The notes: generated by a model from the sequence alone, not told the origin. 64,000 nt of DNA from Eubacteriales bacterium (GCA_028705775.1 JAQWCW010000004.1:62001-126000), one strand, 5' to 3'; positions 16,434 through 33,598 are shown, counted from the first letter of the stretch. Numbers and translations are program-made.

Positions 16434-16523
16434 TTACCTCTGGCAGCGGCAGCAGGAGCCGGTATTGCCCAGAACCGTATCGTCGGAGCAGAGCGGCGGG
16501 AACAAGGGCAAGGAAAAAAATTC
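16434..16523 (-). pseudogene. detached 3' end of the cysteine-rich host gene (see 32765-33598)
   Basis: On the minus strand, 16523 to 16434 reads one Glu codon followed by 28 codons (FFSLPLFPP near the start, SCCRCQR at the end) and a TAA stop. It has no start of its own. The frame, the cysteine content and the shared Glu codon fit it exactly onto residue 234 of the gene broken at 32899, 16.4 kb away. It is the original C-terminus, cut off by prophage insertion. The reconstructed protein would be 262 residues with 21 cysteines. Confidence 0.8.
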
Positions 16524-16546
16524 GTTCCACCTAACGACATACCCGC
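16521..16546. other. attL of the prophage
   Basis: Host DNA up to the shared TTC (16521-16523), then phage DNA with the arm CCTAACGACATACCCGC (16530-16546). This arm is the reverse complement, at 15 of 17 positions, of the attR arm GCGGGTATGACGTCAGG, and the two would face each other in a 48-bp attP whose centre falls inside the TTC. It lies 12 bases from the integrase stop codon. Confidence 0.78.
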
Positions 16547-16557
16547 AAACCGCATAA

Positions 16558-17445
16558 TTATAGAGCCGGAAAGACCTGCAACGTCAAAAGCTTTGAGAGG
16601 TCGCTGTTTCGATAGCCGCGTTCGGTTTTGATGTAGATAATTTTGCTAATCACAGTTCGGAGCAGAGCGCTTTGCTCCTCCGCGCTGGTGGTGCGCTCCC
16701 AGACGTCGAGGACGTGTTTTATTTCGTCGGTAAGACCGCGAATTCGTTCTTCGGGGGGCGCGGGCTGGCTGTCAAGTGCGGCAAGCTCGTTTTTTATATC
16801 CGCTTCACGCTGTTCAAGCTCTGCGTTTCGCGCTAAGTAGGTTTCGGTCGAGTATACGCCCTGTTCGAGCAAGTCGCAGATTTTATTGCGCTGTTCGGCA
16901 ACGCGCCGCAGCTGTATATTGTAAGCGCTTTTTTTCTGCTCGTTGCGGTTGTCCGTGGCGGTTTCGCTGTTGACGGGCGCGAGGCAGATATTATTTAGCC
17001 ATGAGTGCAGGGTATTTATCAGCGCTTCAAAAACATAGTCCGCGATGATTCCTGACGTCGGGCAGTCCTGAGTCAGGCATTTGTAAAAAAAGCGGTTGCG
17101 GTGGATGTCGGGCGACAAAATCATTACGTTTCCGCATTTCGAGCAGTACATAAGCCCTGCAAGGGGGTTGACGTGCTTACGGTTGTCGCTTACGAGGCGC
17201 GGGTTGCTTTTCAGCCGCGCTTGCACGGCGTCGAATAGCTCCTGAGATATTATCGCAGGGTGGATGCCTTTTGCGATAATCGGTTCATCCGACCTTTGGC
17301 GCGATTCGACGGTTGCTCCGTTCACGACTTCGATATGTTTCAGGCGCTTGCCCCATCTGATATATCCTGCGTAAAGCGGGTTTGACAGTATACTCCATAC
17401 TGCCGACGGCGTGAACTTCGCGCCGCTGCCGGTGCGAAAGCCCAT
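16558..17445 (-). CDS. large serine recombinase/integrase, 5'-truncated
   Basis: The C-terminal 295 residues of a large serine integrase. Present are most of the recombinase domain (FTPSAVWSILSNPLYAGYIRWG), a zinc ribbon (CSKCGNVM, then C-x5-C at YKCLTQDCP), a coiled coil rich in Glu/Arg (about 170-260) and a hydrophobic tail. The whole N-terminal resolvase domain with its catalytic serine is missing; normal members have about 480-550 residues. Recognisable homology stops at GFRT, just before the first ATG, where the DNA passes into the MuF gene of the opposite strand. It is a fragment and almost certainly inactive for strand exchange. Its position next to attL is normal for an integrase gene. 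Confidence 0.88.
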   Translation of the reverse strand: MGFRTGSGAKFTPSAVWSILSNPLYAGYIRWGKRLKHIEVVNGATVESRQRSDEPIIAKGIHPAIISQELFDAVQARLKSNPRLVSDNRKHVNPLAGLMYCSKCGNVMILSPDIHRNRFFYKCLTQDCPTSGIIADYVFEALINTLHSWLNNICLAPVNSETATDNRNEQKKSAYNIQLRRVAEQRNKICDLLEQGVYSTETYLARNAELEQREADIKNELAALDSQPAPPEERIRGLTDEIKHVLDVWERTTSAEEQSALLRTVISKIIYIKTERGYRNSDLSKLLTLQVFPAL

Positions 17446-17499
17446 TCTTCCCGAATTTGGGGCGGCGCGGGCAGCCTTGCCGCAAGCCTTCGGGGCGCA

Positions 17500-18498
17500 A
17501 TGTTCGAAAACCTGATGATGGGCAGAACGAGCGATGAAACGTATCGCGAGCTGTACAAGCTCAGTCAGTCAGACGAGCTTGCCACAAACCGCCTTATCCG
17601 CACGGAAAGCGCATATGCCGCCAATCAGGCAATCGCGCAGGCATACGAGGACGCAGGCTTTGAGCGCTACGTTTTTGTTTCGGCGTTTGAGGCAAGAACC
17701 TGCCCTAAATGCGGCGCTATGGACGGCGAAAGCTTCCCGCTTTCCGAAAAGAAGGTGGGCAAAAATTACCCGCCCGTTCATCCTTGGTGCAGATGTACAA
17801 CAAAGCCCGACGACGAGGACTTGAAAGCGCTCGAAAAGGATTCCTCCCGCTGGGCGCGCGACCCCGAAACCGGCGAGTTCGTGAAGGCTCGGGGCGATAT
17901 GACGTATAAGGAGTGGAAGGCGGAGCAGGAGCGCATTCACGGCGAGAAGTCATTCAGCGCAATGCAGAAGAAGGTCTGGAATCTGAAAAGAGACAAGAAG
18001 CAGCTCGAAAAGTATCAAAAACTTATCGGGCTGAACAGGTTCACGCAAGATATTAAGGCTTTTCAGAATATGAAATACGGCGATAAGGAAGTCTATAGTC
18101 TTGTGAAGCTTGATTATCGCCGTCAGCTTACATTGAAAAAATGCCCTAATCTTGCGCTTCCGAATGCAGGACAGGCGACTATTGCCGATACGAAGTTTAC
18201 AGGGTATCTGTTTAATCCTGAGAACAAGAAAGGATGGGTAAAAGGCGTTGCTTTTACAAGCCGTTTAGGGTATGATATAAGTAACTGGCAGGAGCTTCAA
18301 AAGGAGCTGCTCGCCTGTGCGACAAAATATCCGGCTATACGCGGAGAAACAAATGAGCATGGCACTAAGCACACCCAAAAAGCGGTGTTATACGGGAAAA
18401 AAGATAAGCCTGCAAATGTTGTTATCGGGTGGAAATGCAAAGACGAAAAGTCTTGGATGACAACCACGTACATTAGGGAGGTAAGCAAGGATGATTAA
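17500..18498 (+). CDS. MuF-type minor head protein fused to a DUF6883-like toxin domain (5'-truncated)
   Basis: The N-terminal part (about residues 25-103) is the phage Mu F / SPP1 gp7 minor head domain, with RTESAYAANQA, two CxxC-like pairs (TCPKCGAMDG, HPWCRCT) and no N-terminal half. A charged helical linker follows (135-200). Residues about 215-330 form a separate domain with LPNAGQATIADTKFTGYLFNPE and HGTKHTQKAV that resembles DUF6883, a C-terminal domain seen in polymorphic toxin systems. MuF fusions to toxin domains are a known class of phage-borne effectors, carried into a cell with phage DNA. The toxin part is visibly AT-richer than the head genes, a sign of separate acquisition. The next gene overlaps by eight bases and looks like its immunity gene. 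Confidence 0.72.
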   Translation: MFENLMMGRTSDETYRELYKLSQSDELATNRLIRTESAYAANQAIAQAYEDAGFERYVFVSAFEARTCPKCGAMDGESFPLSEKKVGKNYPPVHPWCRCTTKPDDEDLKALEKDSSRWARDPETGEFVKARGDMTYKEWKAEQERIHGEKSFSAMQKKVWNLKRDKKQLEKYQKLIGLNRFTQDIKAFQNMKYGDKEVYSLVKLDYRRQLTLKKCPNLALPNAGQATIADTKFTGYLFNPENKKGWVKGVAFTSRLGYDISNWQELQKELLACATKYPAIRGETNEHGTKHTQKAVLYGKKDKPANVVIGWKCKDEKSWMTTTYIREVSKDD

Positions 18499-18685
18499 GC
18501 AGTTTAGTGAGGTTAAGCTAAAGGACGGGGCGATTGGCTCTGTTATGGACGTGTACACTACTCCTTATGAAGCCTATGACGTTGATATTGGGTCGCCTGA
18601 CCCATCTGTTCCGCTTCCTAAGGATTTTGTGAGAACGGTCACTCCTGATGAGATTGATTCTGTTCTTTGGGAGCCAAAAGACTGA
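18491..18685 (+). CDS. DUF4926-like immunity protein
   Basis: A 64-residue protein starting MIKQFSEVKLKDGAIGSV, with the short SH3-like beta pattern of DUF4926, a family often found directly downstream of DUF6883 domains. Its ATG overlaps the toxin stop by eight bases behind GGGAGG, so the two are made together. A cytoplasmic antidote that binds the toxin domain is inferred. Base composition is as AT-rich as the toxin domain and unlike the flanking phage genes. The call rests on context and a short sequence, so family membership should be regarded as probable only. Confidence 0.62.
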   Translation: MIKQFSEVKLKDGAIGSVMDVYTTPYEAYDVDIGSPDPSVPLPKDFVRTVTPDEIDSVLWEPKD

Positions 18686-18864
18686 CAGCGCGAACCACGG
18701 CGGGACTTTTATTTCAGGCAACTTTTAGAGAGTATCTGAGAGTTAATCAAACAATCGGGCATTACGCCGCTTTCTCCGTTTCGGGGAGGGCGGCTTTTGC
18801 ATATAAAAATTGAACGCGGCGGGGCTTTTTTGGCAACGGCGCGGGCAAAGGAGAGAAAAAAACT

Positions 18865-19524
18865 ATGAGGATTTGGGATTACCGACTTGGAAGGTTCGCA
18901 TTCTGCTTTCCCGCTACGGACGGAGCAGGCGCAGGCGCAGAAACGCCGCCTGAAACGCCGCCTGAGGGCGATGACAAGGGACCGACTGAAACGCCGTCGA
19001 GCTTTGACGACTGGCTCAAGAAAAACCCTTCGTTCCAGTCTGAATTCGACCGCCGCGTGACGAAAGGGCTTGAAACAGCCCGCGCAAAGTGGGAAAGCGA
19101 AACCGCTGAAAAGGTCAGCGAGGCAGAGCGCCTTGCGAAGATGACCGCAGAGCAGAAGGCGCAGCATGAGCGCGAAAAGAAGGAAAAGGAACTGACTGAC
19201 CGCGAGCGCGCGCTGTCGCTCAAAGAGCTCAGGGCGACGGCTTCCGAAACGCTCACTCAGAAGGGACTTCCGCTCGCTCTGCTTGATTCGCTGTCGCTCG
19301 AAAACGCCGAAAAATGCAACGCCTCCATCGAAGCGGTTGAAAAGGCGTATCGCGCAGCCGTACAGGCAGGCGTTGAGGAGCGCATGAAAGGCAAGCCTCC
19401 GGTTGGGGGCGGTAAAGCGCCTGAGGCGGACTACGACAAGCTGATTGACGCCGCGAACGCGAGCGGTAATCTCGCCGAAGCCGCTTATTACACCAGACTA
19501 AAAGCAATGAAATCGAAAGGATGA
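18865..19524 (+). CDS. phage capsid scaffolding protein (DUF4355-like)
   Basis: A 219-residue acidic and strongly helical protein: a Pro/Glu-rich N-terminus, a long charged coiled coil (about residues 50-125, AEKVSEAERLAKMTAEQKAQ) and a glycine/lysine C-terminus. Position directly before the major capsid gene, together with this composition, marks it as the scaffold that templates procapsid assembly. The first 15 residues are unusually hydrophobic and the true start might be later. Its stop is 8 bases before the chosen capsid start. Confidence 0.8.
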   Translation: MRIWDYRLGRFAFCFPATDGAGAGAETPPETPPEGDDKGPTETPSSFDDWLKKNPSFQSEFDRRVTKGLETARAKWESETAEKVSEAERLAKMTAEQKAQHEREKKEKELTDRERALSLKELRATASETLTQKGLPLALLDSLSLENAEKCNASIEAVEKAYRAAVQAGVEERMKGKPPVGGGKAPEADYDKLIDAANASGNLAEAAYYTRLKAMKSKG

Positions 19525-19532
19525 TTAACACA

Positions 19533-20861
19533 ATGGCAGATGTTTTTGCTACGAGCTTTGAAGTGCTCAACTACTCCGGTATGCTCTTTAACAAGGGCAA
19601 CGTCCGCACTCCGCTTTCCTCCGCAATCGGTGGAAGGCAGAAAACCACGAACTCCGTTGAGTTTGTGACGGGGCAGGAATACGACGGCGGCGCTGCAGGC
19701 ACTCAGCCTGCAATTTCCGAAAGCGCCTCCCTTACCGCGCCTGAGGCGACCGTAATCACGCGCGCTCAGAAAACCAACGTAACTCAGATTTTTCAGGAGA
19801 CTGTGGGCGTTTCCTACGCCAAGCAGTCCAACTTCGGCACTCTTTCCGGCGTAAACGCCGCCGCTCAGCAGGCAAACCCGATTGCCGAGCTTGATTTTCA
19901 AGTTGCCGCGAAGATGCAGAAAATCAACCGCAACATCGAGTACACCTTCATCAACGGCGTATACCGGAAAGCGGCAAACGACGCAACTCCCAACCAGACT
20001 CGCGGGCTTGTAAGCGCGATTCAAAGCTCCGCAATCGACATGAACGGAAAGCCGCTCTCCCTCTGGGGCGTGGCTGACGCGCTCAAGTCCGTTTACGAGC
20101 AGAACGCGCCCATCGACGGCATGACGCTCTGGCTCGACGCGGTTTCCCTCTATCAGCTCAACGCCGACGCGCAGCAGAACGACTTGACCATCGTTCCCAA
20201 CGCCCGCGAGGTAAACGGCATTCAGCTGTCCTCGCTCATCACGCCTCTGGGCGTTGTTTACGTCCGTCTGGGCGAGTGCCTGCCTGCCGGTACTGCGCTC
20301 CTGCTCAACCTCGGCGCTATTTCGCCCGTCATTCAGCCCGTTCCGGGCAAGGGCAATTTCTTCCTTGAGGAGCTTGCCAAGACCGGCGCAGGCACGAAGT
20401 ATCAGCTTTTCGGGCAGATTGGTCTTGACCACGGCATGGAATGGTATCACGCCAAGATGACTGGCTTGAGCACCGGCTTCACCAAGCCCGAATATTCCAA
20501 GAAGGTTTACATCTCCGGCGCGGTTCCCACCGTTACCGTCGACGCGACCCTGACCGGCGCAACGCTTGACAAGCAGACCGTTGAGGCGAGCGACAGCGCG
20601 AAGGTTGCCGTTTCCGCGCAGTATGACATCACTCCCGGAACTGACGCGACTCTTACCTATCTCTGGCAGATTCGCGCAAAGACCGGTACTAACTGGACTG
20701 ACTTGACCAGCGCCTACACCGGCTACAACACCAGCGAGCTTACCGTCAAGGCAGCCGACGCTGAAAAGCATTACCGCTGCAAGGTTACGGCAACCGGCTC
20801 CGCAACCGGCACGGTATACTCCGGCGAATGCACCGTAAACGCGGCGGCTGAGGAGGAATAA
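19533..20861 (+). CDS. major capsid protein with C-terminal Ig-like domain
   Basis: About 442 residues. The first 340 resemble the SU10/DUF5309 group of HK97-fold capsid proteins (NKGNVRTPLSSAIGGR, NRNIEYTFINGVY, WLDAVSLYQLNADAQ, IGLDHGMEWYHAKMTGL). The last 90 or so form an immunoglobulin-like beta domain (TYLWQIRAKTGTNWT, YRCKVTATGS) that would project from the capsid surface. Ig domains on capsids are thought to bind glycans such as mucin. ATG 19533 is chosen because AAAGGA is ten bases upstream; ATG 19521 overlaps the scaffold stop and has no separate ribosome site. Confidence 0.85.
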   Translation: MADVFATSFEVLNYSGMLFNKGNVRTPLSSAIGGRQKTTNSVEFVTGQEYDGGAAGTQPAISESASLTAPEATVITRAQKTNVTQIFQETVGVSYAKQSNFGTLSGVNAAAQQANPIAELDFQVAAKMQKINRNIEYTFINGVYRKAANDATPNQTRGLVSAIQSSAIDMNGKPLSLWGVADALKSVYEQNAPIDGMTLWLDAVSLYQLNADAQQNDLTIVPNAREVNGIQLSSLITPLGVVYVRLGECLPAGTALLLNLGAISPVIQPVPGKGNFFLEELAKTGAGTKYQLFGQIGLDHGMEWYHAKMTGLSTGFTKPEYSKKVYISGAVPTVTVDATLTGATLDKQTVEASDSAKVAVSAQYDITPGTDATLTYLWQIRAKTGTNWTDLTSAYTGYNTSELTVKAADAEKHYRCKVTATGSATGTVYSGECTVNAAAEEE

Positions 20862-20864
20862 CGT

Positions 20865-21182
20865 ATGTCTGAGCTGCTTAACGCCTCCGAATTGCTTGAC
20901 AGGCTCAAAAGCCGCATAGACGGAGCAGACGGAAAGGACGAACTGCTTAGTGAGCTTTTAACGGACGCAGGCGACGCTATCAAAGCGTACACGTGCCGTG
21001 ATTACGTCCCCGATTGTCTCGTTTCTGCGCAGGTCAGGCTTGCCGCAATCCTTTTTAATAGGCAAGGCATGGAGGGCGAAAGCAGCCATTCCGAGGGCGG
21101 CGTCAGCGTTGCGTCTGACGCCCTCCCCGAGGAAATAAAGGCGCAGATCAGACCCTACCGCCTAGCTAGGACGATGAGGTGA
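20865..21182 (+). CDS. phage head-tail connector protein (gp6-like)
   Basis: A 105-residue, mostly helical protein of the gp6/connector type. It has an LLSELLTDAGDAIKAYTCRDYVPDCLV helix pair, then the conserved ARL/AAILFNRQGMEGESSHSEGGV loop and a basic end. Such proteins form the ring below the portal that links head and tail. It starts three bases after the capsid gene behind GAGGAGG. Confidence 0.72.
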   Translation: MSELLNASELLDRLKSRIDGADGKDELLSELLTDAGDAIKAYTCRDYVPDCLVSAQVRLAAILFNRQGMEGESSHSEGGVSVASDALPEEIKAQIRPYRLARTMR

Positions 21183-21185
21183 AAA

Positions 21186-21509
21186 ATGCGCGCAAGACAG
21201 AAAATACAGGTTTGGTATAAACCTCCCGCCGAGCTGACGGGCGCTTTCGGCGGAGTTTCCGACGATTGGAGCGCAGGGCAGATGAAAACCGCTTTCGCCG
21301 TCCTCTCGCCCGTTCTGGGGCAGGCGCTTATTTCCGCGTATGGCGAAAACGCGGTAAAGACCGTAACGCTCAATCTGCCGATTGACTGCGAAATCGCTCT
21401 GGGTGATGGCGTATGGCTCGATACGGCGCATGAGCTTCCCTTCGGCAAGGTCGTTTCGCCGCCGAGAAAATATCTGCGCCACGTAGAAGCGGACGTGAGA
21501 AGCCTGTGA
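21186..21509 (+). CDS. putative head-tail joining (head closure) protein
   Basis: A 107-residue beta-rich protein with no strong signature. Its size and place between the connector and the gp10-like gene are those of head closure proteins (SPP1 gp16 type). The QKIQVWYKP start and DCEIALGDGVWLD fit a small beta barrel. Assigned mainly by synteny. Confidence 0.55.
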   Translation: MRARQKIQVWYKPPAELTGAFGGVSDDWSAGQMKTAFAVLSPVLGQALISAYGENAVKTVTLNLPIDCEIALGDGVWLDTAHELPFGKVVSPPRKYLRHVEADVRSL

Positions 21510-22030
21510 GCATGAATAGTGAGGGGCTTGAAACCGTTGCGGAAAACCTTGAAGGGCTTTCCTCCGCTCTTGCTGGCGCGATTGCGCGCGCGGTTCAGCA
21601 GGCGGGCGAGGACGCAGCGGGCAAGGCAAGGCAGGACGCGCCGACGCGGGGCGCGGGCGAGGGAGGCGGAGCAGGCGTTTCGCTCAAAAACTCCATCACC
21701 GCAAAAACGGAGGCTTCGGGCGGGCTGATTTCAACCGTTGTAAGAGCCGCCGCTCCGCACGCTCAATATGTCGAATTCGGCACCGGCTGGGCTGTCGGGC
21801 ATAACTGTTATACCGTTGTGCAACGCAAAGGGCTTAACAAAAAAGGCGAGCCTTACAAGCCTTACACAATCAAGGGCTGGATTTACCCGATAAAGTCGCA
21901 GGGCGGCGAAAAAACGTCCTTCCGCGTAACGCAGGGCATGGCGCCGCGCCCGTTCATGCGCCCTGCGATGGAAATGGCGCGCCCGATTCTGCGTGCAAAG
22001 CTTCAGCGCCTCATCAAAAGGGGGGAATAG
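21506..22030 (+). CDS. HK97 gp10-like tail component
   Basis: A 174-residue protein of the HK97-gp10 family, a tail completion or neck component. The recognisable motifs are HAQYVEFGTGW and the C-terminal GMAPRPFMRPAMEMA. The start is GTG 21506 overlapping the previous stop, or ATG 21512. A glycine/alanine-rich insert (about residues 45-60) separates the N-terminal helix from the core. Confidence 0.78.
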   Translation: MSMNSEGLETVAENLEGLSSALAGAIARAVQQAGEDAAGKARQDAPTRGAGEGGGAGVSLKNSITAKTEASGGLISTVVRAAAPHAQYVEFGTGWAVGHNCYTVVQRKGLNKKGEPYKPYTIKGWIYPIKSQGGEKTSFRVTQGMAPRPFMRPAMEMARPILRAKLQRLIKRGE

Positions 22031-22033
22031 ACC

Positions 22034-22381
22034 GTGACCGACGATTCCGCGCGCGTTAGCGTCGCGCTGACCGGCGCTCTTGCGCCAGTCAAAGTTTACT
22101 ACGCTTACCCGCTCAGCTGGACGGCGCTTCCTGTCGTGTCCTTTTACGAGCTGTCAAACTCCGTGGCGGCAACCGCCGACGATGACGAGGTTCTGTCGCG
22201 CGTTTCGTACTCCGTTGACGTATGGGCAAATACGCCCGATGAAACGCATATGCAGGGCGGGGAAATCGACGCGGCTATGCGCGCTCTGGGCTATCACCGG
22301 CAAGGCGCATATGACCTTTTTGAGCAGAGCGGCTCAAGCGGCATTCACCACCGAAACATGACCTACACAACGACAATCTGA
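22034..22381 (+). CDS. putative tail terminator protein (DUF3168-like)
   Basis: A 115-residue protein with the small alpha/beta look of tail terminator proteins: PVVSFYELSNS, SYSVDVWANTPDE and a C-terminal FEQSGSSGIHHRNMTYTTTI strand. Tail terminators cap the tail tube, and the order connector, closure, gp10, terminator, tail tube is standard. Start is GTG 22034. Confidence 0.65.
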   Translation: MTDDSARVSVALTGALAPVKVYYAYPLSWTALPVVSFYELSNSVAATADDDEVLSRVSYSVDVWANTPDETHMQGGEIDAAMRALGYHRQGAYDLFEQSGSSGIHHRNMTYTTTI

Positions 22382-22394
22382 AAGGGGTTTATTT

Positions 22395-22982
22395 ATGGCT
22401 AAGAAGATTCTCAAGGGCTTCAAGTCGCTGCATTATCTGCCCATCGCAACGACAAACGGCAACGATGAAACGCATTACGCAGTATCGACCGCAGTCGCGC
22501 TTCCCGGCGCGATGAACTGCACCCGCGCCGATACGCGCAACGACGTCAAAATCAACGCAGACGACACCGTTTACCTCACCGATTCGGACTTTACCGAGGC
22601 AAAGCTCGATATTGAGGTAGCGGGCATCTCGCTTGCAGACCTTGCCGCGCTCACGGGCGCGACCTACGACACCGAAGCGGAAACGCTGACCGAAAAGATT
22701 ACCGACGCAGCGCCTTACGTAGCGCTTACCTTTGCCGCAGCGCTTGCCGATGGCGAGGGCTCGCGCCTTTTCCAGTATTTCTGCTGCAAGTGTACCGGCG
22801 TCAAGTCGGACGTAAAGACCGCCGGTCAGAGCACCGAGGCAAGCACGGTAACGCTGACCTTCTCCTGCGTCGGTCGCCTCTGCGACGGCGCTGTCCGCGC
22901 AACGAAGGATTTTGACATGAGCGCGAGCGATTCCGACCGCAGCGCTTTCCTGACTTCGATTACTGCCGTAACGCCCGCCTGA
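22395..22982 (+). CDS. phage major tail (tube) protein
   Basis: A 195-residue beta-rich protein of the phi13-type tail tube family: LKGFKSLHYLPI start, KINADDTVYLTDSDFTEAKLDIEV strand set and the end YFCCKCTG/VTLTFSCVGRLCDG. It polymerises around the tape measure to form the tail. It is followed directly by a terminator hairpin, as is common for highly expressed tail tube genes. Confidence 0.8.
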   Translation: MAKKILKGFKSLHYLPIATTNGNDETHYAVSTAVALPGAMNCTRADTRNDVKINADDTVYLTDSDFTEAKLDIEVAGISLADLAALTGATYDTEAETLTEKITDAAPYVALTFAAALADGEGSRLFQYFCCKCTGVKSDVKTAGQSTEASTVTLTFSCVGRLCDGAVRATKDFDMSASDSDRSAFLTSITAVTPA

Positions 22983-22999
22983 TAAGGGCTATTTTCCCG

Positions 23000-23037
23000 C
23001 TGAGCCGTTCCGTTTGTGGGGCGGCTCAGTTTTCTTT
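23000..23037 (+). terminator. terminator/attenuator after tail tube gene
   Basis: CTGAGCCG (23000-23007) pairs with CGGCTCAG (23022-23029), followed by TTTTCTTT. It probably lowers expression of the tail chaperones and tape measure relative to capsid and tube. Confidence 0.8.
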
Positions 23038-23059
23038 ATGACGCGAGGAGGATTTCAAA

Positions 23060-23608: not shown

Positions 23609-23712
23609 TGGAGGATTACGCGCCGGACGAGTTTATGCTTGTGATGGACGCTTACGCGCAGATTCATCAGGTTTCCGAAAAGGCGGAGGAAGTCAGCGCG
23701 GAGGATTTTTAA
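23500..23712 (+). CDS. frameshifted C-terminal extension of the tail chaperone (gpT-like part)
   Basis: The -1 frame adds 70 residues (RGRPKSGTGA, then EFYVQHWLACALSVGISKRE and EDYAPDEFMLVMDAYAQIHQV). This has real helical protein character and would give a G-T fusion of about 217 residues. It has no convincing start codon or ribosome site of its own, so frameshifting is the natural route. It ends 17 bases before the tape measure gene. In lambda the T part contacts the tape measure protein. Confidence 0.72.
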   Translation, partial: RGRPKSGTGASDEGNEFYVQHWLACALSVGISKRELMEDYAPDEFMLVMDAYAQIHQVSEKAEEVSAEDF

Positions 23713-23729
23713 GGGGCGGTGAAAACTAA

Positions 23730-26700
23730 ATGGATTTAGGAGATATTCAGTTTACGCTGTCGGTTCAGACCGGCGCGCTGATGGAGGGCTTGAGTCAGGC
23801 GTCCGAAGCGCTTGCGGAGTTTGCCGAGGCGCAAAGGAACGGGGGCAACGGTGCAGAGGCAGCCGCTCAGAAGATGGACGCGGCAATGCGCAGGATGGGC
23901 GAAACCGCCTCGCAGAGCGGAAAAGTAGCCGCCGGAGCAGCCGACCAGACCGCCGTTGCAATGACTGCGCTTGCAGCCGCTTGCGCAAAAGCGTTTTCAA
24001 TGATTGTCGGCGCTGTGAATTCCGGCATTGAGGCAAGCAATAAATACAAGGCGGCGATTCAAGGCTTGCAGAGCGTTGCAACCGCAAAGGGTATCGGCTC
24101 AGACGCGATTCAGCGGGAGCTTGACGGGCTTGTCGACCAGTTTTTCTCCGCCGCCTCCGCTTCAACGGCGCTCAAAAATCTGCTTTCGCGCGGCTACAGC
24201 CTTGAGCAGGCGGTTAATTCAATCAATCGCCTCAAGGACGCCGCCGCGTTCGGTCGTCAGGCAAGCTACAGCTTGGGCGACGCGGTTGTTTCCGCAACCG
24301 AGGGCTTGAAAAACGAGAATTCTATCCTCGTAGATAACGCGGGCGTAACCAAAAATGTGTCGAAAATGTGGGACGATTACGCGCGCTCGATTGGCACGAC
24401 AGCAGGCAGCCTCACGCAGGCGCAGAAGATTGAAGCTGAGTATCAGGGCATTATGAGCGAAACCTCCGCTCAGGTGGGCGACCTAGCAAAGCTTTCAGAC
24501 ACGCTCGCAGGCTCGCAAGCCGAATCGCAGGCTAAAACGGTCGAGCTGTCGCAGGCTTTGGGCGAGAGCATGACGCCCTCCGTTATGCTCGCTACCGAGG
24601 CGTGGAATTCGCTTCTGGGCTTGATGTCGCAGTTTGTCGCGCAGAATCCGTCTGTTGTCGCGGGAGTAACAACTACGATTGGCGTTGTTACGGGGCTTGG
24701 CGCTTGCGTTTCCGGCATAAGGGCGCTTACAAAGGCGTTTGAATACCTTAAAATCGCAGGCTCTACAATCGGCTGGCTTGCCGCAATCGGCGCGGCTATC
24801 GGGCTTTTCGTAGGCATTATTGACAGCATAAATAGAGCAAGTCAAGCCGCCGCAAAGGCGCAGCAGGAAGCGCTCGAAGCATCCAAAAGCAAGGCTGACG
24901 AGCTGGCAAAAGAGAACTCGGCGCTTGAGAAGCTTGCAGCGCGCTACGAAACGCTTTCGGGGCTGACCGACCGCTCGCGCGCCGAAACCGCCGAAATGCG
25001 CTCGATTGAGCAGCAGCTGCAATCAACCTACGGGCTTACCGGCGCGGCGCTTTCGGGGCTTGCTGGGAGCTACGACGAAGTAATCAAAAAAATCCGCGAG
25101 AAAATAACCGCGCAAAAGGAAGAACAGCTGCAAGAATCAAAAACGCAGATGCGCATTATGCAAAGCCAGCTTGAGGACAATCCATATTATGAGGAAATGC
25201 AAAATCTTGAGCGGTATAAGCGCGATTTGCAAACTTACGCCGATACAATAAATAATAATCAGCTGTTTAATAACCTTGATTTTTCGGCGCAGGAGGAAAT
25301 CAAGGCTAAATACAATGAAATCAATGATGAAATCGCGGTTGCAACGGACAATCTTGAAAAAATGGACGCTAAATACCGCGAGGAGTATATGAGCCTGTCG
25401 GGGGAAATGGCAGACCTTTCCGTGCAGATTCCAGTACTTGAATTTGAAATTGCCAACGGCTCGGCAAGCGAAATGACAAGCGCGATTGTTGGCGCGTTTT
25501 CAGGCGCGATTAACGCCGCAGCGCCGGGGCTGTCGGGGGCTTACTCGGACGCAATCAATTCGATTTTGTCCGACGCGGACCTGTCAAAAACAGCAGAAAA
25601 CGCCGACGCGCTTTTCGATACGCTTACGGGCGGGGGAGTGCTTACAGCAGACGAGCAAGGTCAACTGGCAGATTATATATATTCGATTTGGGCAACGCTT
25701 TACAAAAACATCCCGAAAGAATTTTCGGGGGACAAAGACGGGCTTATGAGTCAGATGTTTTCGCAGCTTTTCAGCGTTACGCCTGAGATGGACAACCTTG
25801 CGAGTTGGATTGCAAGCTTTTCAGAGGGCAACACGCAGCGCCTTTTTGAAACAGACCAGCTTGAAAGCTACACGTCTAAGGTAAACGACGCGGCGAAAGC
25901 CTACGAAACGGCGGCAAAAGGCTCGCTTGAATTGCAGGAGGCAATGAAACAAGCACAAGCCGCGCAGGAAGAAGCCGGTCAAGGCACTCAGGAGTACGAT
26001 GACGCCTTGGCTGAGTACAACGCTTTGTCAGCCGAGCTTAACGCAAAAAACCTTGAAAGCGAGGCGGCTTTTGAAGCGCTTTCGGAGATTATTGCAACGG
26101 TAAGCGAGCTTTATCCTGATTTGACAAGCGGGAGCGAGGCTGAAAATCAGGCGCAGGCAAGTCTTGTTGCCGCGTACAGGCGGGGCGACGCCGCCCTCCA
26201 GCTGCGCGGCAGGACGCTCAAAAGCACCACAAAGGCAGTAGCAAGCAGCACAAAGGAATTCAACAAATACACCGCGAGTCAGAAAGACCTGCAAAAATGG
26301 ATTGACGACCAGACGGACAGCCTTGCTTGGATGAACCGCGAGATTGCCAACAGCAGCGAGCTTTTCAGCGATGTAAGCGGCATAAAGGCTCAGATTGACG
26401 CGGGCGCTCAGCTCGACGCGACTCAAACGGGCTTGATTGCTTCCCTCGGTCTTATGGGTTCAACCGCGCAGGAAACCTCCGATAATTGCGCGGCTTGGCT
26501 TGCGCGCATGGCAGATACGCTTCAAGGCGAGATAGGCAAAGCGGAGAGCGCGTCAAACGATTTGAGCGATTCGCTTTCCTTCATTTCCGCAATGCACCCC
26601 GACATAAAAATTGGCACGTCCTCCGCAATCGCCGCGATGAAAGCGGTTGTCGCTCAGGCAATCATCACAATCGGCTACCTTAACAAGGCGGGCATTCCGA

Positions 26701-27044
26701 CCGGCGGCGGCGGCGGCGGCGGGGGCGGCAACAGCAAGTACCAGAAGGACATAACCGCGCTTGAGCACCTGAAAAAGCTTGAGCAGGTGGATAACGAGCA
26801 GGAGCTTGAGCGCCTGCTTGAATTGCAGCAGAAGTACACGAACCGGCGCGGCAAGAGTACGCTCAAGAAAGCCGACCAGCGCGACCTTGAGGAGCGGCTA
26901 TTTGAGGTTCGCGAAAAGATTCGCGAGGAAGCCTTTAACGCCGACATGGACGAGTACGAGCACCGAAAGCGCATGGGCGAAATGACCGTAGAGCAGGAAA
27001 TCGAAAGCCCGAAATCACCGTCAAGGTTTCGCTTCTCCCGCTGA
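23730..27044 (+). CDS. tail tape measure protein, 3'-truncated
   Basis: 1,104 residues of a tape measure protein: an N-terminal helical region with a TMP core domain (about residues 80-300), two hydrophobic helices (about 310-380), long coiled coils rich in Ala/Glu/Gln and a run of ten glycines (GGC repeats, 26702-26731). Its length sets tail length. The natural C-terminal repeat appears to begin at HRKRMGEMTVEQEIE and then breaks. From about 27000 the frame runs only 14 further residues (SPKSPSRF and so on) while another frame continues with tail-lysin sequence. The end is therefore a deletion junction, not a genuine C-terminus. Confidence 0.85.
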   Translation: MDLGDIQFTLSVQTGALMEGLSQASEALAEFAEAQRNGGNGAEAAAQKMDAAMRRMGETASQSGKVAAGAADQTAVAMTALAAACAKAFSMIVGAVNSGIEASNKYKAAIQGLQSVATAKGIGSDAIQRELDGLVDQFFSAASASTALKNLLSRGYSLEQAVNSINRLKDAAAFGRQASYSLGDAVVSATEGLKNENSILVDNAGVTKNVSKMWDDYARSIGTTAGSLTQAQKIEAEYQGIMSETSAQVGDLAKLSDTLAGSQAESQAKTVELSQALGESMTPSVMLATEAWNSLLGLMSQFVAQNPSVVAGVTTTIGVVTGLGACVSGIRALTKAFEYLKIAGSTIGWLAAIGAAIGLFVGIIDSINRASQAAAKAQQEALEASKSKADELAKENSALEKLAARYETLSGLTDRSRAETAEMRSIEQQLQSTYGLTGAALSGLAGSYDEVIKKIREKITAQKEEQLQESKTQMRIMQSQLEDNPYYEEMQNLERYKRDLQTYADTINNNQLFNNLDFSAQEEIKAKYNEINDEIAVATDNLEKMDAKYREEYMSLSGEMADLSVQIPVLEFEIANGSASEMTSAIVGAFSGAINAAAPGLSGAYSDAINSILSDADLSKTAENADALFDTLTGGGVLTADEQGQLADYIYSIWATLYKNIPKEFSGDKDGLMSQMFSQLFSVTPEMDNLASWIASFSEGNTQRLFETDQLESYTSKVNDAAKAYETAAKGSLELQEAMKQAQAAQEEAGQGTQEYDDALAEYNALSAELNAKNLESEAAFEALSEIIATVSELYPDLTSGSEAENQAQASLVAAYRRGDAALQLRGRTLKSTTKAVASSTKEFNKYTASQKDLQKWIDDQTDSLAWMNREIANSSELFSDVSGIKAQIDAGAQLDATQTGLIASLGLMGSTAQETSDNCAAWLARMADTLQGEIGKAESASNDLSDSLSFISAMHPDIKIGTSSAIAAMKAVVAQAIITIGYLNKAGIPTGGGGGGGGGNSKYQKDITALEHLKKLEQVDNEQELERLLELQQKYTNRRGKSTLKKADQRDLEERLFEVREKIREEAFNADMDEYEHRKRMGEMTVEQEIESPKSPSRFRFSR

Positions 27045-27091
27045 AAGGCTCGCCGCTCTGGAAATGGTACGGAGAGCTTGAGCGCTTCGCC

Positions 27092-27973: not shown

Positions 27974-27989
27974 CGAAAGGATGAAATGA

Positions 27990-28349
27990 ATGCGCGAAAT
28001 CACAATAACGGTAAACAGCGCAGGGAAACTGACTGCGAGCAATACAACCCTCGGCTATGCGGGGGAACACCTCGCAGTCAAGGTAAACTTCGACGTTTCC
28101 GCGTGGGCAGAGGTTTTCCCCGGCGCGGAAATTGATAACGTATCAGTTCTGGCGACAATCAACAACGCGCGCGGCTATGCGCTTGTAGAGTCGAAGCCGC
28201 AGGACGGCATTGTGACATGGCTGCCCTCCGCTGCCGATATGGTTGCCTCAAGGAATGGGGCGCGCAGCGGAAATACTGCCTCAAGGCGAATTGGATTGAC
28301 CCTACGCAATCATGCAATGTCGTTTCCGCGCGTCTGGCGCGTCAGATGA
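27990..28349 (+). CDS. baseplate/tail-fibre N-terminal domain, 3'-truncated
   Basis: From 27990 the frame encodes about 87 residues like the N-terminal domain of BppU-type baseplate/fibre proteins (REITITVNSAGKLTASNTTL, GYALVESKPQDGIVTWLPSA). At about 28250 it becomes a nonsense tail (RNGARSGNTASRRIG) that overlaps the CotH gene in another frame. The rest of the original protein is lost at a deletion junction. It starts 17 bases after the tail-lysin remnant with a good GAAAGGATGAAATG ribosome region. Confidence 0.6.
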   Translation: MREITITVNSAGKLTASNTTLGYAGEHLAVKVNFDVSAWAEVFPGAEIDNVSVLATINNARGYALVESKPQDGIVTWLPSAADMVASRNGARSGNTASRRIGLTLRNHAMSFPRVWRVR

Positions 28350-29776
28350 TGGATGATTACGCCGCTGTTGCCGCCGCGCCGTGTCATGGGCTTATAGACG
28401 GCTTCCCCGCGCTGGTCTGGCTCAACGACGACTGCACGGGACTTTATACGCTCAACATCCCCAAAGACGAGTGGATGTTTAACATGGACCCCGAAAGCAA
28501 TTTTAACCACATCGTCCTTTGTGCAGAGGAGCAGAGCGGTTCGTGCGCGTTCACGGAGGCAGCAGACGCGCAGGCTTGGTCGATTGAGGTCGGCGAGGAC
28601 ACCGAAGAAAACATCATAGCGAAGTTCAACCGCCTTGTAAGCTTTATCAAGGACACAGACGATAAGACGACCTTCAAAAACAACGCGAACGCTTACTTTA
28701 ACGTAGACGCGGCACTCAACTATTACCTTTTCTGCTACGTTGCTTGCGCCGTTGACAATCTCGGAAAAAATATGCTCATGGTGACCTATGACGGCTCGCA
28801 TTGGATACCGTCGCTCTACGACCTTGACGGGCTTTGGGGCGTTGGCTATGACGGTAAAACAAAATACCCCGCAACCGCTCCATGCCCCGGCGCTTATCAA
28901 TGCACAACGTCCCTCTTGTGGCAGAAGCTTGAATCATTTTATGCCGCAGAACTTAAAGAACGCTATGCGCTCCTCCGTCAGAGCGCGCTTTCGCAGGATA
29001 ACATCCTCAAGGCGTTCAGGGAGTTCATCGGCTCGATTCCTCCGCAGCTCTATGAGTACAATACGCGCCGTTGGCTAGGAATGCGCGAAATGCGCCGAAC
29101 GCTTGAGCAGATGGAGGAATGGATTCCTCTGCGCCTCGCTTACGTTGATACCGCTATACAGCAAATCGGCGGCGGCGCGGTCATCGACCCTGAAATATGG
29201 GACGGCTCAAAGCTGACCGACACGTTCAGCTCATCGGGCGGAGCTGCCGAGTATATCAACACGGAGTTTATACCGTTTTCGGACGATAATACAGCGTGGA
29301 CGATTCTGGCGCGTGTGAGCAAATCGGCGGTAAACGATACCATTTACTTCTCGTCTTTCTGCGAGGCTTCAACGCCCGGAAACATGGGTATGATTGCTCG
29401 CGTTGTTCCGGCAAGCTGGCTTGGTCAGATAGGCGACGCGCCGACCTTACATATCCAGGTTATACAGCCCTCTACTGGCACTATTTCGCATACTTGGGCT
29501 GTAGCTGATTTGACGGGCGATTATCTCGATATAGCCATCACACGCGCCGAAGACGCCTATAAAATCTACTTTAATAATGCGCTCGTTGAGCAGGGCAACG
29601 CGCCTACGCTCTCCGCAGTAACAGAGACGCTGCTCATCGGCGCGCAATGGGATTCGACCCGCGAGGCGGTTATGCGCACAGGGACGATGACAATACCCTA
29701 TTTTGAGGTTGTCAATTCAACCTTGGACGCGGCAGCAATCGCCGCGAAGTTCGCGACAGCGCCCACCGCCGAGTAA
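28217..29776 (+). CDS. CotH-kinase-domain tail protein with LamG-like domain, 5'-truncated
   Basis: A 519-residue frame. About residues 13-230 resemble the CotH kinase family: QRKYCLKANWIDPTQ, DGFPALVWLNDDCTGLYTLN, PKDEWMF, NYYLFCYVACAVDNLGKNM and VTYDGSHWIPSLYDLDG. Bacillus CotH is a protein kinase that phosphorylates spore coat proteins; phage tail proteins carrying this domain occur in gut Clostridia. The last 180 residues look like a LamG/concanavalin-type sugar-binding domain. Homology begins at KEWGAQRKYC, right at the junction with the fibre gene, and the first dozen residues are read from fibre DNA out of frame. The N-terminal part is missing, so activity is doubtful. Confidence 0.75.
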   Translation: MAALRCRYGCLKEWGAQRKYCLKANWIDPTQSCNVVSARLARQMMDDYAAVAAAPCHGLIDGFPALVWLNDDCTGLYTLNIPKDEWMFNMDPESNFNHIVLCAEEQSGSCAFTEAADAQAWSIEVGEDTEENIIAKFNRLVSFIKDTDDKTTFKNNANAYFNVDAALNYYLFCYVACAVDNLGKNMLMVTYDGSHWIPSLYDLDGLWGVGYDGKTKYPATAPCPGAYQCTTSLLWQKLESFYAAELKERYALLRQSALSQDNILKAFREFIGSIPPQLYEYNTRRWLGMREMRRTLEQMEEWIPLRLAYVDTAIQQIGGGAVIDPEIWDGSKLTDTFSSSGGAAEYINTEFIPFSDDNTAWTILARVSKSAVNDTIYFSSFCEASTPGNMGMIARVVPASWLGQIGDAPTLHIQVIQPSTGTISHTWAVADLTGDYLDIAITRAEDAYKIYFNNALVEQGNAPTLSAVTETLLIGAQWDSTREAVMRTGTMTIPYFEVVNSTLDAAAIAAKFATAPTAE

Positions 29777-29788
29777 GGGGGCGAAACG

Positions 29789-31183
29789 ATGAAAGCAAGC
29801 GGCAGTACGACCGTATACAACACAATCAAGGACTTAATCCCGTCCGCAACCGCGCCTCCCGTCAAAGCGACAGGTCAGCTCTGGCTCGACACGACCAACA
29901 ACACGCTTTACAAGTGGAGCGGGTCAGAGTGGGTCAGGGTTATTGCGCAGGCGCTGCACACAAGCAAAGTCGCAGTTACTGATGAGGGTATCGACCTTGA
30001 AACGGACGGCGCGCTCAATATCAAATCGGGCGCGAGGATGAATCTCAAGTCGGGCGGCGCGCTTAACGTGGAGGGCGGCACGGTTGACATAAACGCCGAA
30101 AGCACGTTCAAGGTCGCGGCGGGCGCAGAATCCGGCGAATTCATGAAGATTCAGAATGATTCTGAAACAGTCATGTTCGGAGGCGCAGACGACGCGGAGG
30201 GGACAAACGCAGGGTTTGCCCTCTCCCGCAACGGGCGTTTTGACTGCAATGACGCGCATATCAAAGGCTCGGTCGAGCTGACGGACGGCGCAGACTTCAA
30301 GCTTGAGGACGGCGCAACCGCTTCGTTCGGCGAAATCGCGCGGCAGACGTTCATAACCGCGCTGTTTGGCGGTTCAAGCGTAAGCGTTGTCCCGTGCGGT
30401 TCTGGCATTGCAACGCGCGGCGAGCTTCGGGCGCTTCTGGGCATTTATTCCGGTCAGGGCGCTCCGTCCGATACGGTCACAAGCCCGCTGTACGGCGATA
30501 TTTATCTCAAGCTTGCGAGCGCGACCGAAACGCCGTCATCCTCCGCGAGCTTCACGCTTTCGGGCTATCAGCGCGAGGTCATAAGGCACAAAAAAACCGT
30601 TGTCAAAAGGCTCAACGGCGTAACGCAATCCTCCTCCACGTCCACAACCAACACGATTACGGGCGCGACAGAGACTTCTTCCTCCGTTTGGAGCTATAAC
30701 AGCGGCACTTACGAGTACGACAGTTCGAGCTCCTCCTCCACTTCGGGCGGCGTGGTGACGACCACTACGACCTTTAAGCAGAGACAGACATATTATTGGG
30801 CGGTCTGCCCTGCTCCGACCTCCGCGCAGCTTGCCGCGTCGCCCGTCGAAAGCTCAACGATTACGTTCACACTCGGCTCAAACCCTAACACAAACTATAA
30901 TTTGTACCTCTCGACAGGCTCGCAGGGCAAGGACGGCACGAGAACGCTCATCGCGCAGAAAAAGATTGAAGCGACAACGGTTGAGTTCGACCTTTCAAAC
31001 GTGATTGAAACGCTCAAGGGCGCGGGAACGACCGCTTATTATTTCAGCCTTGAGCCTGCCACATCGGGCGCAATGAACACCGCGCGCACAGTCACAACCG
31101 CCTCGATGGGCGTTGACTACATCGGCGGCACGGCGACAAACGAGCTGTACGCGTATAACGGTTCTGCATGGAATCTGATTTAA
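29789..31183 (+). CDS. phage tail fibre/baseplate protein, beta-helical
   Basis: A 464-residue virion protein. After a capping segment (GQLWLDTTNNTLYKWSGSEWV, a motif of fibre proteins) comes a repeat of IxxxGAxNxxxGG type (about residues 70-110, DGALNIKSGARMNLKSGG) typical of beta-helices or beta-prisms, then Ser/Thr-rich strands. The end, ELYAYNGSAWNLI, repeats the same W-containing cap motif. Receptor binding is likely. It is intact, between the CotH-type gene and the lysis cassette. Confidence 0.65.
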   Translation: MKASGSTTVYNTIKDLIPSATAPPVKATGQLWLDTTNNTLYKWSGSEWVRVIAQALHTSKVAVTDEGIDLETDGALNIKSGARMNLKSGGALNVEGGTVDINAESTFKVAAGAESGEFMKIQNDSETVMFGGADDAEGTNAGFALSRNGRFDCNDAHIKGSVELTDGADFKLEDGATASFGEIARQTFITALFGGSSVSVVPCGSGIATRGELRALLGIYSGQGAPSDTVTSPLYGDIYLKLASATETPSSSASFTLSGYQREVIRHKKTVVKRLNGVTQSSSTSTTNTITGATETSSSVWSYNSGTYEYDSSSSSSTSGGVVTTTTTFKQRQTYYWAVCPAPTSAQLAASPVESSTITFTLGSNPNTNYNLYLSTGSQGKDGTRTLIAQKKIEATTVEFDLSNVIETLKGAGTTAYYFSLEPATSGAMNTARTVTTASMGVDYIGGTATNELYAYNGSAWNLI

Positions 31184-31195
31184 GGAGGCGGTGAA

Positions 31196-32089
31196 ATGAT
31201 TAATGCGGCTGACTTGGTAGAAAAGTTTGAATACGTCCTCTCTCTCGGCGCGGGGTACATCTACGGCGCGTCAGGGCAGACTTGGACGCAAGCAAAGCAA
31301 AATGCCGCTACTCGCTCAATGACAGTCAAGCACGGCGCAAAATGGATAGGCAAGCGCGTATGGGACTGCTCGGGGATGTTCTCGTGGACGTTTCGCGAGC
31401 TTGGCGGCTACTGCTATCACGGCTCTAACACAATATGGGAAAGCTTTGTACTGAAAAGCGCGAGGGGGAAGCTGATAGACGGGCGCAGAGAAGATAGCAA
31501 ACCGCTTAAGGCGGGAACAGCCGTATTCCTTGTTGATAGCGCCGGTTGCAGACATCATGTAGGGCTGTACATCGGTAACGGGTACTGCATTGAGGCTAAA
31601 GGCACGGCTTACGGCGTTGTAAAAAGCAAAATCACACATTGGCACGAGTACGGGGAATTAATCGGCGTTGACTACGCAAACGCCGCAGTAACCGAAGAAA
31701 GCGGGGCGGCATACATGGAAACTTTGAAGGCAGGGTCAAGGGGCGAAAACGTGCGCACGGCGCAGGCGCTTCTCAACGTATGGGCGCAGGACGTAGGCGG
31801 CGTTGCGATTACTGAGGACGGCGCTTTCGGGACTGCGACAAAGGCGGCAGTAATGGCGTTTCAGAGCGCAAAGGCGCTTATGGTTGACGGCATTATCGGC
31901 ACGCAGACTTGGGCGGCATTGCAGGGCTTGCCTGACGCAGAGCCTGACAATACGGACGAGGGCGAAGCAGAGCCTGACGGAGAGGCAGAAACGGACAAGT
32001 TTGATAGAGTTAAGGAAGCAATAAAAGCCGCTCAGGACGCCCTAAAAACGGCGCAGAGCGTGATTGCGGCAATGGAGGCGAAAAGCTGA
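31196..32089 (+). CDS. endolysin: NlpC/P60-type peptidase with peptidoglycan-binding domain
   Basis: A 297-residue lysin. The N-terminal peptidase (about 1-165) shows the catalytic cysteine in WDCSGMFSWTFRELG and the histidine in RHHVGLYIGNGY. A PG_binding_1 domain follows (about 175-245, LKAGSRGENVRTAQALLN, DGAFGTATKAAVMAFQ, DGIIGTQTWAALQ), then an acidic linker and a C-terminal helix. It cleaves the peptide part of peptidoglycan to release phage. It has a strong AAGGAGG ribosome site, and its stop overlaps the next start by one base. Confidence 0.88.
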   Translation: MINAADLVEKFEYVLSLGAGYIYGASGQTWTQAKQNAATRSMTVKHGAKWIGKRVWDCSGMFSWTFRELGGYCYHGSNTIWESFVLKSARGKLIDGRREDSKPLKAGTAVFLVDSAGCRHHVGLYIGNGYCIEAKGTAYGVVKSKITHWHEYGELIGVDYANAAVTEESGAAYMETLKAGSRGENVRTAQALLNVWAQDVGGVAITEDGAFGTATKAAVMAFQSAKALMVDGIIGTQTWAALQGLPDAEPDNTDEGEAEPDGEAETDKFDRVKEAIKAAQDALKTAQSVIAAMEAKS

Positions 32090-32448
32090 TGGAGTGGCTT
32101 ACATCGCTCACGGGCTCAAATTTGCTTATCGCGCTTGTCGTACTCTGCGCCCTACTCTGGCTTTACAACCTCATCGCCGAGGCGGTAAGAAATCACCGCG
32201 AGCTGAAAAAACCGCTCGACGCGCGCGCGCAGAACATCACCGCAAGGCTCGACGAGTACGATACTTATTTTGCCAACGACAAACGCCGTATCGAACAGCA
32301 CGACAAGGAAATCGCAACGCTGAGGGACGGCTTGAAGGTCAACTGCTTTGGGGTCAAGGCGTTGCTTAATCACGAGCTGCACAACGGCAACGCGCAGGAA
32401 ATGCAAAAAGCCGCGTCCGACATGGACGCATGGCTTATAAATAAATGA
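32089..32448 (+). CDS. phage membrane protein of the lysis cassette
   Basis: 119 residues: an N-terminal transmembrane helix (NLLIALVVLCALLWLYNLI), then a charged coiled-coil region and a C-terminal helical hairpin. Position between lysin and holin suggests a lysis accessory (XhlA- or spanin-like role), but no family was recognised. Confidence 0.6.
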   Translation: MEWLTSLTGSNLLIALVVLCALLWLYNLIAEAVRNHRELKKPLDARAQNITARLDEYDTYFANDKRRIEQHDKEIATLRDGLKVNCFGVKALLNHELHNGNAQEMQKAASDMDAWLINK

Positions 32449-32462
32449 AAGGAATGATTTAC

Positions 32463-32699
32463 ATGACTGAAATCAAGAATGAAATCGTTAAAACCGAAAC
32501 CGAAACGCAGCCGAGGTATAAGAGCTGGGCGCTCTGGCTGAGCGTTTTCGGCGCAATCTGGACAATCCTGAGCCTTTTCGGGCTGACCGAAAAGATAGGC
32601 ATAACCGACGAAACCGCAAAAGCCGTCGTTGACGCGGTGGGCGTTATTCTCGTGTCTTTCGGTATCGTCAACAACCCGACCAACAAATCACATCTGTAA
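32463..32699 (+). CDS. phage holin
   Basis: A 78-residue holin of the phi-LC3 type: charged N-terminus, two transmembrane helices (SWALWLSVFGAIWTILSLFGL and AKAVVDAVGVILVSFGIV) and the signature ending NNPTNKSHL. It forms pores that release the endolysin. ATG 32463 is preferred to ATG 32445 because AAAGGA is nine bases upstream. Confidence 0.82.
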   Translation: MTEIKNEIVKTETETQPRYKSWALWLSVFGAIWTILSLFGLTEKIGITDETAKAVVDAVGVILVSFGIVNNPTNKSHL

Positions 32700-32714
32700 A
32701 CGTAACATCTTAAA

Positions 32715-32741
32715 GGGAGGGCTTGCGCCCTCTCTTTTTTT
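32715..32741 (+). terminator. terminator of the phage late operon
   Basis: GAGGGC-TTGC-GCCCTC stem with weaker outer pairs, followed by CTTTTTTT. Confidence 0.85.
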
Positions 32742-32764
32742 GTGCAAAAAATCAAAAAAAGCTT

Positions 32765-33598
32765 TTAGGTGAAGCCTTGGAAGAACGCCGCAAGAATCGC
32801 TAATCGAAGAATTCCAATCAGCCGCCGAAAGGCGGCTTTTCTTATTCCCGTCTCCGAACTTGTAGTATTTATTCGCGGGTATGACGTCAGGCGCGGTTCA
32901 TCACAAACATTTTCTGCAAATTCCTCGCAGGGAGGAACGGTACAGAAGCCGTAGGAGGGAATCAGAACCTCAACCTTTGCGAGAACCTTCAGCACAACCG
33001 TTACGCAAACCGTCATGCGGAAGCGGTTGTTGCCCTCATAAACGCCGGAAACGCAGATGGCGCTTACCATGCTCTCAATCTTGTAGGGAACGATGGATTC
33101 GTCGGGCAGGGAGAGAAGAACATCCTTGTGTACCTGAATGACAGCTTTGCCGATATACTGAACGCAGCGGCTGTCCGTGAACAGTATGTCGATTGGCACG
33201 TCTACGGTCAGCCTGACGCGCGCAAAGCAGGGGCGGTCGCACAGCCTGTCGATTTGAAGGTTTGAAATCACTCCGTCCGTTGTGGTCGAGCGGCAGGAAT
33301 CAAAGGTTATGGGCGGCACGGGCGGCGATGTCGGCGGAACTGTGTCGGGGGTGTTGTTGCGGCATGAGCCGATGCTTTCCTGGCATGAGCAGCCGCATTG
33401 ACTGCCGCAGGAATCCACTACCTGAGCGTAGCTTGTTATTGTGACGCGCACATCGTCAAGCTGCTCCTGCTGCAGGCAGGAATCATAGACGCGCTCAAGC
33501 TGCACGCAGATGCGTTCGGTCAGCCCGTCGGTGGCGTTTCCGGAAATCGTGCCGGGACAGGCAAGCGTATCCGCGTTCTTATAGCTGTAAAACGACAT
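32765..33598 (-). CDS. cysteine-rich conserved protein, C-terminus replaced by prophage DNA
   Basis: Residues 1-234 are host-encoded: 17 cysteines, a Cys cluster DSCGSQCGCSC, a Pro-rich linker (DTVPPTSPPVPP) and a beta-rich second half (VRLTVDVPIDILFTDSRC, AVIQVHKDVLLSLPDES). It resembles a family of uncharacterised Clostridia proteins; I know no function, and a spore-surface or envelope role is only a guess. After Glu234 the frame runs through attR into phage DNA for 43 foreign residues (PRLTSYPRIN to FFQGFT) before a stop. The true 28-residue tail lies at 16434-16520. Start ATG 33598 follows AAGGAGGG. Confidence 0.75.
   Translation of the reverse strand: MSFYSYKNADTLACPGTISGNATDGLTERICVQLERVYDSCLQQEQLDDVRVTITSYAQVVDSCGSQCGCSCQESIGSCRNNTPDTVPPTSPPVPPITFDSCRSTTTDGVISNLQIDRLCDRPCFARVRLTVDVPIDILFTDSRCVQYIGKAVIQVHKDVLLSLPDESIVPYKIESMVSAICVSGVYEGNNRFRMTVCVTVVLKVLAKVEVLIPSYGFCTVPPCEEFAENVCDEPRLTSYPRINTTSSETGIRKAAFRRLIGILRLAILAAFFQGFT
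32821..32840 (+). terminator. second terminator near the prophage right end
   Basis: GCCGCC-GAAA-GGCGGC with a stable GNRA-like loop, followed by TTTT. It protects the host side of attR from phage transcription. Confidence 0.75.
32875..32899. other. attR of the prophage
   Basis: Phage arm GCGGGTATGACGTCAGG (32875-32891) followed by CGCGG and the shared TTC (32897-32899), after which host DNA continues. Joining host left (to 16520), TTC and host right (from 32900) restores an uninterrupted reading frame across attB, with TTC serving as a Glu codon on the minus strand. Confidence 0.78.

Follow-up and report, generated by a model that had tools for sequence, protein, structure and literature searches.

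The window, that is, the whole 64,000-nucleotide stretch analysed here, contains a prophage of 16.4 kb that splits a gene encoding a cysteine-rich protein. The initial annotation had located both halves of this gene, together with attL and attR, to the base, and all of the coordinates were verified. The split gene, its promoter, and the att sites are the following:

32897-33598, minus strand: N-terminal 234 codons (Met to the shared Glu) of the putative Cys-rich sporulation gene; same-family relatives are 56-75% identical over residues 1 to about 234
16434-16523, minus strand: displaced 3' end, consisting of the shared Glu codon, 28 codons (FFSLPLFPPLCSDDTVLGNTGSCCRCQR) and a stop; the tail motif is the same in intact relatives
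16521-16523, no strand: attL core TTC; crossover dinucleotide probably TC (GA on the minus strand)
32897-32899, no strand: attR core TTC, placed by the join and by attP symmetry
16530-16546, plus strand: phage arm of attL, CCTAACGACATACCCGC
32875-32891, plus strand: phage arm of attR, GCGGGTATGACGTCAGG, placed by attP symmetry
33661-33686, minus strand: sigma-K-type promoter of the Cys-rich gene, with AC at 33686-33685, 16 nt, and CATAGCAT at 33668-33661

The next ORF upstream of the split gene, at 33763-36216, is large and encodes several immunoglobulin-like domains of the Big_2 type.

On the minus strand, the 277-codon ORF at 32765-33598 reads CEEFAENVCDE followed by PRLTSYPRIN, and the displaced piece comprises 29 codons plus the stop. 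One Glu codon, TTC on the plus strand, is common to both edges; joining the pieces at this codon restores a 262-codon gene that matches intact relatives, and the 43 residues that follow the shared Glu in the 277-codon ORF are phage-encoded. The two phage arms are inverted copies at 15 of 17 positions within a 48-bp attP, and the symmetry of the entire attP exceeds that of shuffled sequences (p = 0.003). A short common core and an inverted-arm attP of about 50 bp, as expected for serine integrases, are both found here, and the joined flanks reproduce the empty site of the relatives, in agreement with the earlier proposal of insertion by a large serine integrase at exact att sites. A 4-bp core, GTTC (16524-16527 and 32896-32899), was also considered, but joining there shifts the frame and yields 308 codons that match no relative; because the relatives fit only the TTC join, TTC was chosen as the core.

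An intact gene without insertion, as had been predicted, is present in most of the 80 relatives. In 11 of the first 12 same-family copies examined, and in L010, the Glu is followed by FF-(S/A)-LP-(L/I)-FP and then by a tail that contains Cys; the intact relatives read VCDE-FFSLPLFPP followed by the Cys-rich tail. A scan of the genome collection retrieved 80 loci, all but six of which read through the Glu codon into the motif; all six exceptions break exactly at this codon, with L048, L052, L095, and L103 continuing from VCDE into unrelated sequence and L066 reading VYDV. The initial annotation had named two findings that would speak against an insertion, namely relatives naturally ending like PRLTSYPRIN or intact C-termini unlike the displaced piece. 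The ending PRLTSYPRIN was found in no relative, and the intact C-terminus is CDEFFSLPLFPP plus a Cys-rich tail, as in the displaced piece. At L107 (G205, contig C81), the contig ends right after GAAT, a few bases from the insertion codon; an assembler might break where integrated and empty sites coexist. In two relatives, the pieces of this gene lie on different contigs, with the break near residue 150 (G138, C66/C11; G149, C45/C93; L134, L135, L140, L141), a possible second insertion site.

The promoter and distribution of the gene point to sporulation. The arrangement AC-N15-18-CATANNNT, which we take to be the sigma-K consensus, lies upstream of 81 out of 81 copies (that of the window included) compared with 1.8 expected in shuffles, and the spacing is 16 in 80 of the 81. 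Across 308 genomes of the family, 136 carry both the gene and SpoIVA, 15 only the gene, 12 only SpoIVA, and 145 neither (Fisher 4e-54, for rows that are not phylogenetically independent); some of the 27 discordant genomes may reflect incomplete assemblies. SpoIVA is present in the genome of the window. Because of this co-occurrence and the 81/81 promoters, we assign the Cys-rich gene as a mother-cell (sigma-K-type) sporulation gene, which would make it an interrupted sporulation gene of the skin or SPbeta-spsM type. Its product may have a coat-type function. Searches of Pfam and NCBIfam returned nothing meaningful for this protein, and a sequence search of the PDB gave no match. An AlphaFold model (mean pLDDT 69.8) has a well-predicted β-rich core and a poorly predicted tail, and a PDB fold search with this model gave no match at E ≤ 0.001. 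A literature search, covering few subscription papers, found no published account of the gene.

The recognizable content of the prophage is as follows:

16558-17445, minus strand: large serine integrase, C-terminal fragment, with partial Recombinase domain, zinc ribbon, and C-terminal region; catalytic N-terminus missing
17443-17510, no strand: presumed deletion scar, integrase fragment head-on to MuF fragment; homology begins at residue 2 (integrase) and residues 3-5 (MuF)
17500-18498, plus strand: MuF-like minor head protein, short of about 200 residues at the N-terminus, with C-terminal DUF6883 (phrog_2841, PF04233, PF21814)
18865-19524, plus strand: head scaffolding protein (phrog_172, 1e-41)
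19521-20861, plus strand: major capsid protein, SU10 type (PF17236, 1.7e-51)
20865-22381, plus strand: head-tail connector and tail completion genes (PF05135, PF11367, phrog_5)
22395-22982, plus strand: major tail protein (phrog_88, 1.5e-27)
23730-27044, plus strand: tape measure-like protein (phrog_4211, 5e-10)
28217-29776, plus strand: CotH-domain ORF without a start (PF08757 from profile position 34)
31196-32089, plus strand: endolysin, NlpC/P60 and peptidoglycan-binding domain (domain matches)
32445-32699, plus strand: holin (phrog_297, 1.7e-8)

The integrase ORF encodes 295 aa, compared with about 510-550 aa in its siblings, and matches PF07508 (1.5e-15) from profile position 31, phrog_95 (1.1e-50) at positions 290-561 of 651, and PF13408 at 2.8e-4, which is under the curated cut-off of that profile. 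The fragment is 29-36% identical to the full-length integrases at the same site and only 26-39% to its viral relatives. Seven full-length siblings have, beside an att site, an integrase that combines the resolvase N-domain with the recombinase domain and the zinc ribbon; the window copy retains only the C-terminal part, next to attL, and on its domain content we file it as the relic of a large-serine-integrase prophage rather than as an intact member. The MuF ORF matches phrog_2841 (6e-41) only from position 206 of 525. The frame of the CotH ORF starts within another ORF (27990-28349), and the region at 28217 therefore probably marks a second scar, left by a deletion or a frameshift. The CotH domain, which here sits in the tail region of the prophage, is familiar chiefly from a kinase of the spore coat.

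The same Glu codon is occupied repeatedly. The gene is split there in 11-13 of 151 gene-bearing genomes from at least 6 genera, by different prophages with related integrases. The evidence consists of N-halves cut at the codon with phage DNA beyond, and of C-halves that follow phage DNA and the gene of a serine integrase. Besides the window, ten cases are firm (G032, G143, G147, G200, G201, G202, G261, G268, G276, and G318), and two more (G130 and G205) are cut at the codon on N-half evidence only. Both halves lie on a single contig in G147 (49 kb apart), G276 (39 kb), and G032 (6 kb), and in nine cases the integrase gene ends about 50 nt or less from the C-half (from the N-half in G268). The full-length integrases at this site are 35-61% identical among themselves, and the analysis did not establish their monophyly. 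The centre of attP symmetry falls between the G and the AA of the codon, on the same GA, in the window, G147, G200, G202, G143, and G318, and the best symmetry of the free attP of phages G134 and G266 is centred there too. One contig (G172, C21) has a 55-bp end overlap, as in a circular phage contig. A viral-collection element, L226, is integrated in the same gene in reverse, and in both L226 and L205 (G268) the reversed element places its integrase beside the N-half. The GAATTC attB core is palindromic in many hosts, so that both integration directions could be permitted.

A search for sigma-E/K-type promoters of the integrases gave one unconvincing, weak candidate in seven (G202), and no general enrichment of such promoters was found across the prophages. 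Integrases without a mother-cell promoter agree with SPbeta, but this proves nothing. The scan upstream of the integrases pointed, instead, to a divergent small ORF preceded by CATAGGATG, with homologues in other elements. With start codons assigned by ribosome-binding sites, the mother-cell-type -10 sequence CATANNNT occurs 20-43 nt upstream in 16 of 21 small ORFs, a count not fully independent because the phage copies are partly related. The background at that distance is 14 of 424 ORFs of the same phages (3.3%), five of which belong to the small-ORF family itself. The first ten small ORFs came from exploration; the fairer set is the 11 gathered after the hypothesis, of which seven have the -10 (G201, G224, L225, and L227-L230) and four lack it (G266, G172, G132, and L226, the last with CATANNNT at 143 nt upstream instead). 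It is also absent in G318, which is at the site. Among those lacking it, the free phage G172 has a host with neither SpoIVA nor the target gene, the free phage G266 comes from a genome with an intact gene, and the G132 element adjoins a tRNA-like sequence rather than lying in the spore gene. The -35 elements are poor in most small ORFs.

The small ORF is found in 10 of 308 family genomes, 8 of which carry this integrase group (Fisher 3e-9), in a search that did not recover the divergent versions from G032, from G130, and from the G200 group. Phages that have neighbouring integrases but use different sites (G131, G141, G137, G187, and the second of G200) yielded no member of the family, and there was no match to recognized RDF families. 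By analogy with characterized systems, the small ORF may encode the RDF of these phages.

The insertion, att sites, new C-terminus, and intact relatives of the initial annotation all stand, but it had missed that the element is a relic, that the target is a putative sigma-K-type sporulation gene, that the target codon is recurrent, and that a small ORF of sibling phages is preceded by a -10 of the mother-cell type; its finding is sound, but describes the decayed state of a more extensive arrangement. The split gene, the att sites, the truncated genes, the recurrent codon, the promoter motif of the host gene, and the enriched -10 are established by sequence. We favour, at a probability of about two in three, the reading that the window holds the relic of a spore-gene-intervening prophage whose intact relatives at the same codon excise in the mother cell and thereby rebuild the gene. 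A temperate phage would have used its large serine integrase, recombining attP with attB, to integrate at one Glu codon (GAA), acting on its GA, in a late mother-cell gene for a Cys-rich spore protein. The intact siblings at this codon appear to be spore-gene-intervening prophages: under a sigma-E/K-type promoter, their small protein would turn the integrase towards recombining attL with attR in the mother cell, where the spore gene would be rebuilt, and the spore chromosome would retain the prophage. With less assurance, though still on balance, we favour the broader view of a temperate phage group of uncultured gut Clostridia specialized on one Glu codon in at least 6 genera, with its own mother-cell-timed excision factor from a new small-protein family, in which decay of the switch, as in the window, fixes a truncated protein.

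Alternatively, these could be ordinary temperate phages whose common attB is conserved and lies close to the 3' end of a spore gene that the host can spare. Insertion would be tolerated because the gene matters little, there would be no developmental excision, and the small ORF would be an unrelated phage gene. Such phages would fit the conservation of attB throughout the family, the loss of only a 28-codon tail, the relatedness of the integrases at most sites, and integrase genes without mother-cell promoters. We nevertheless consider this rather unlikely, since the enrichment of the -10 upstream of the small ORF (16/21 against 3.3%) and the way this ORF tracks the integrase group argue against it.

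The window copy appears to have lost the means of excision. Phage gene order places the repressor, replication, terminase, and portal genes between integrase and MuF, and none of these was recognized within the 16.4-kb prophage, nor was a homologue of the small ORF found there; two sibling prophages measure 39 and 49 kb. The best reading is a deletion from the integrase catalytic domain through to mid-MuF, which would include the small gene. With both excision genes gone, the prophage is probably locked in and excision in cis looks impossible; therefore, the spore protein would permanently lack its conserved Cys-rich tail and consist of its first 234 residues plus 43 phage-encoded ones. The deletion could be an assembly error, the integrase/MuF junction being a chimera in a draft of 48 contigs and the true prophage intact. 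We judge this improbable, as no catalytic integrase half occurs elsewhere in the assembly (best 25% identity, E 1e-4), the contig continues into host genes on either side, and the second scar near 28217 suggests real decay. That the relic is kept for a host function, e.g. as a tail-like particle or for the 43-residue C-terminus itself, is highly improbable: the tail, lysis, and capsid genes are mostly still open, as is the fusion ORF across its 43 codons, but packaging genes were not found in the prophage, the integrase, MuF, and CotH ORFs are truncated, and no relative shares the new C-terminus.

Several known systems are comparable. SPbeta interrupts spsM of Bacillus subtilis, with SprA as integrase, expressed in vegetative cells, and SprB as RDF, the latter preceded by a sigma-E/K -10 that is perfect and a -35 that is not (PMC4191935). 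The skin element in sigK of Clostridioides difficile uses the serine recombinase CD1231 and the RDF CD1234, a protein of 72 aa under sigma-E and SpoIIID (PMC5025042); like SprB, CD1234 is a small protein with a mother-cell promoter. Late spore genes also harbour yin, in Clostridium botulinum yabG and described as unique to one strain (PMC10747680), and gin, in Bacillus cereus gerE and devoid of phage genes (PMC5595907). As with SPbeta, we find a serine-integrase prophage in a putative mother-cell spore gene, an integrase without sporulation-specific control, and, in the siblings, a small protein with a good sigma-E/K -10 and a weak -35. In contrast to SPbeta, the target gene and host lineage are different, many phages use one codon, and the window copy is apparently dead; excision of the sibling elements is a proposal drawn from sequence, and the small ORF resembles SprB in size and promoter. 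The skin element likewise lies in a mother-cell gene and relies on a serine recombinase together with a small RDF expressed in the mother cell (a candidate in our case), but the target here is a Cys-rich protein rather than a sigma factor, and only its last 28 codons are lost. Serine recombinases in sigma-K-controlled or late mother-cell genes are common to yin, gin, and the present elements; unlike yin, one codon is hit here in at least 6 genera.

The literature examined describes only a few spore-gene-intervening elements, each a case apart. In the present group, a single codon of one gene serves many phages, some of which still seem to be free, with a circular contig and an intact attP. Empty, occupied, and decayed sites can thus be set beside one another, and why prophages choose mother-cell genes becomes testable by comparison. 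If the proposed excision is true, phages carry the spore-gene switch themselves, repeatedly across at least 6 genera. Further products of the analysis are a candidate new RDF family, sets of integrase, attP, and attB that belong together, and, for an uncultured family, a gene whose presence follows sporulation. In a neighbouring integrase subclade (L194-L196 and L198), a conserved short frame, YG(L/V)(F/Y)IEWML, follows the integrase and possibly belongs to another interrupted host gene.
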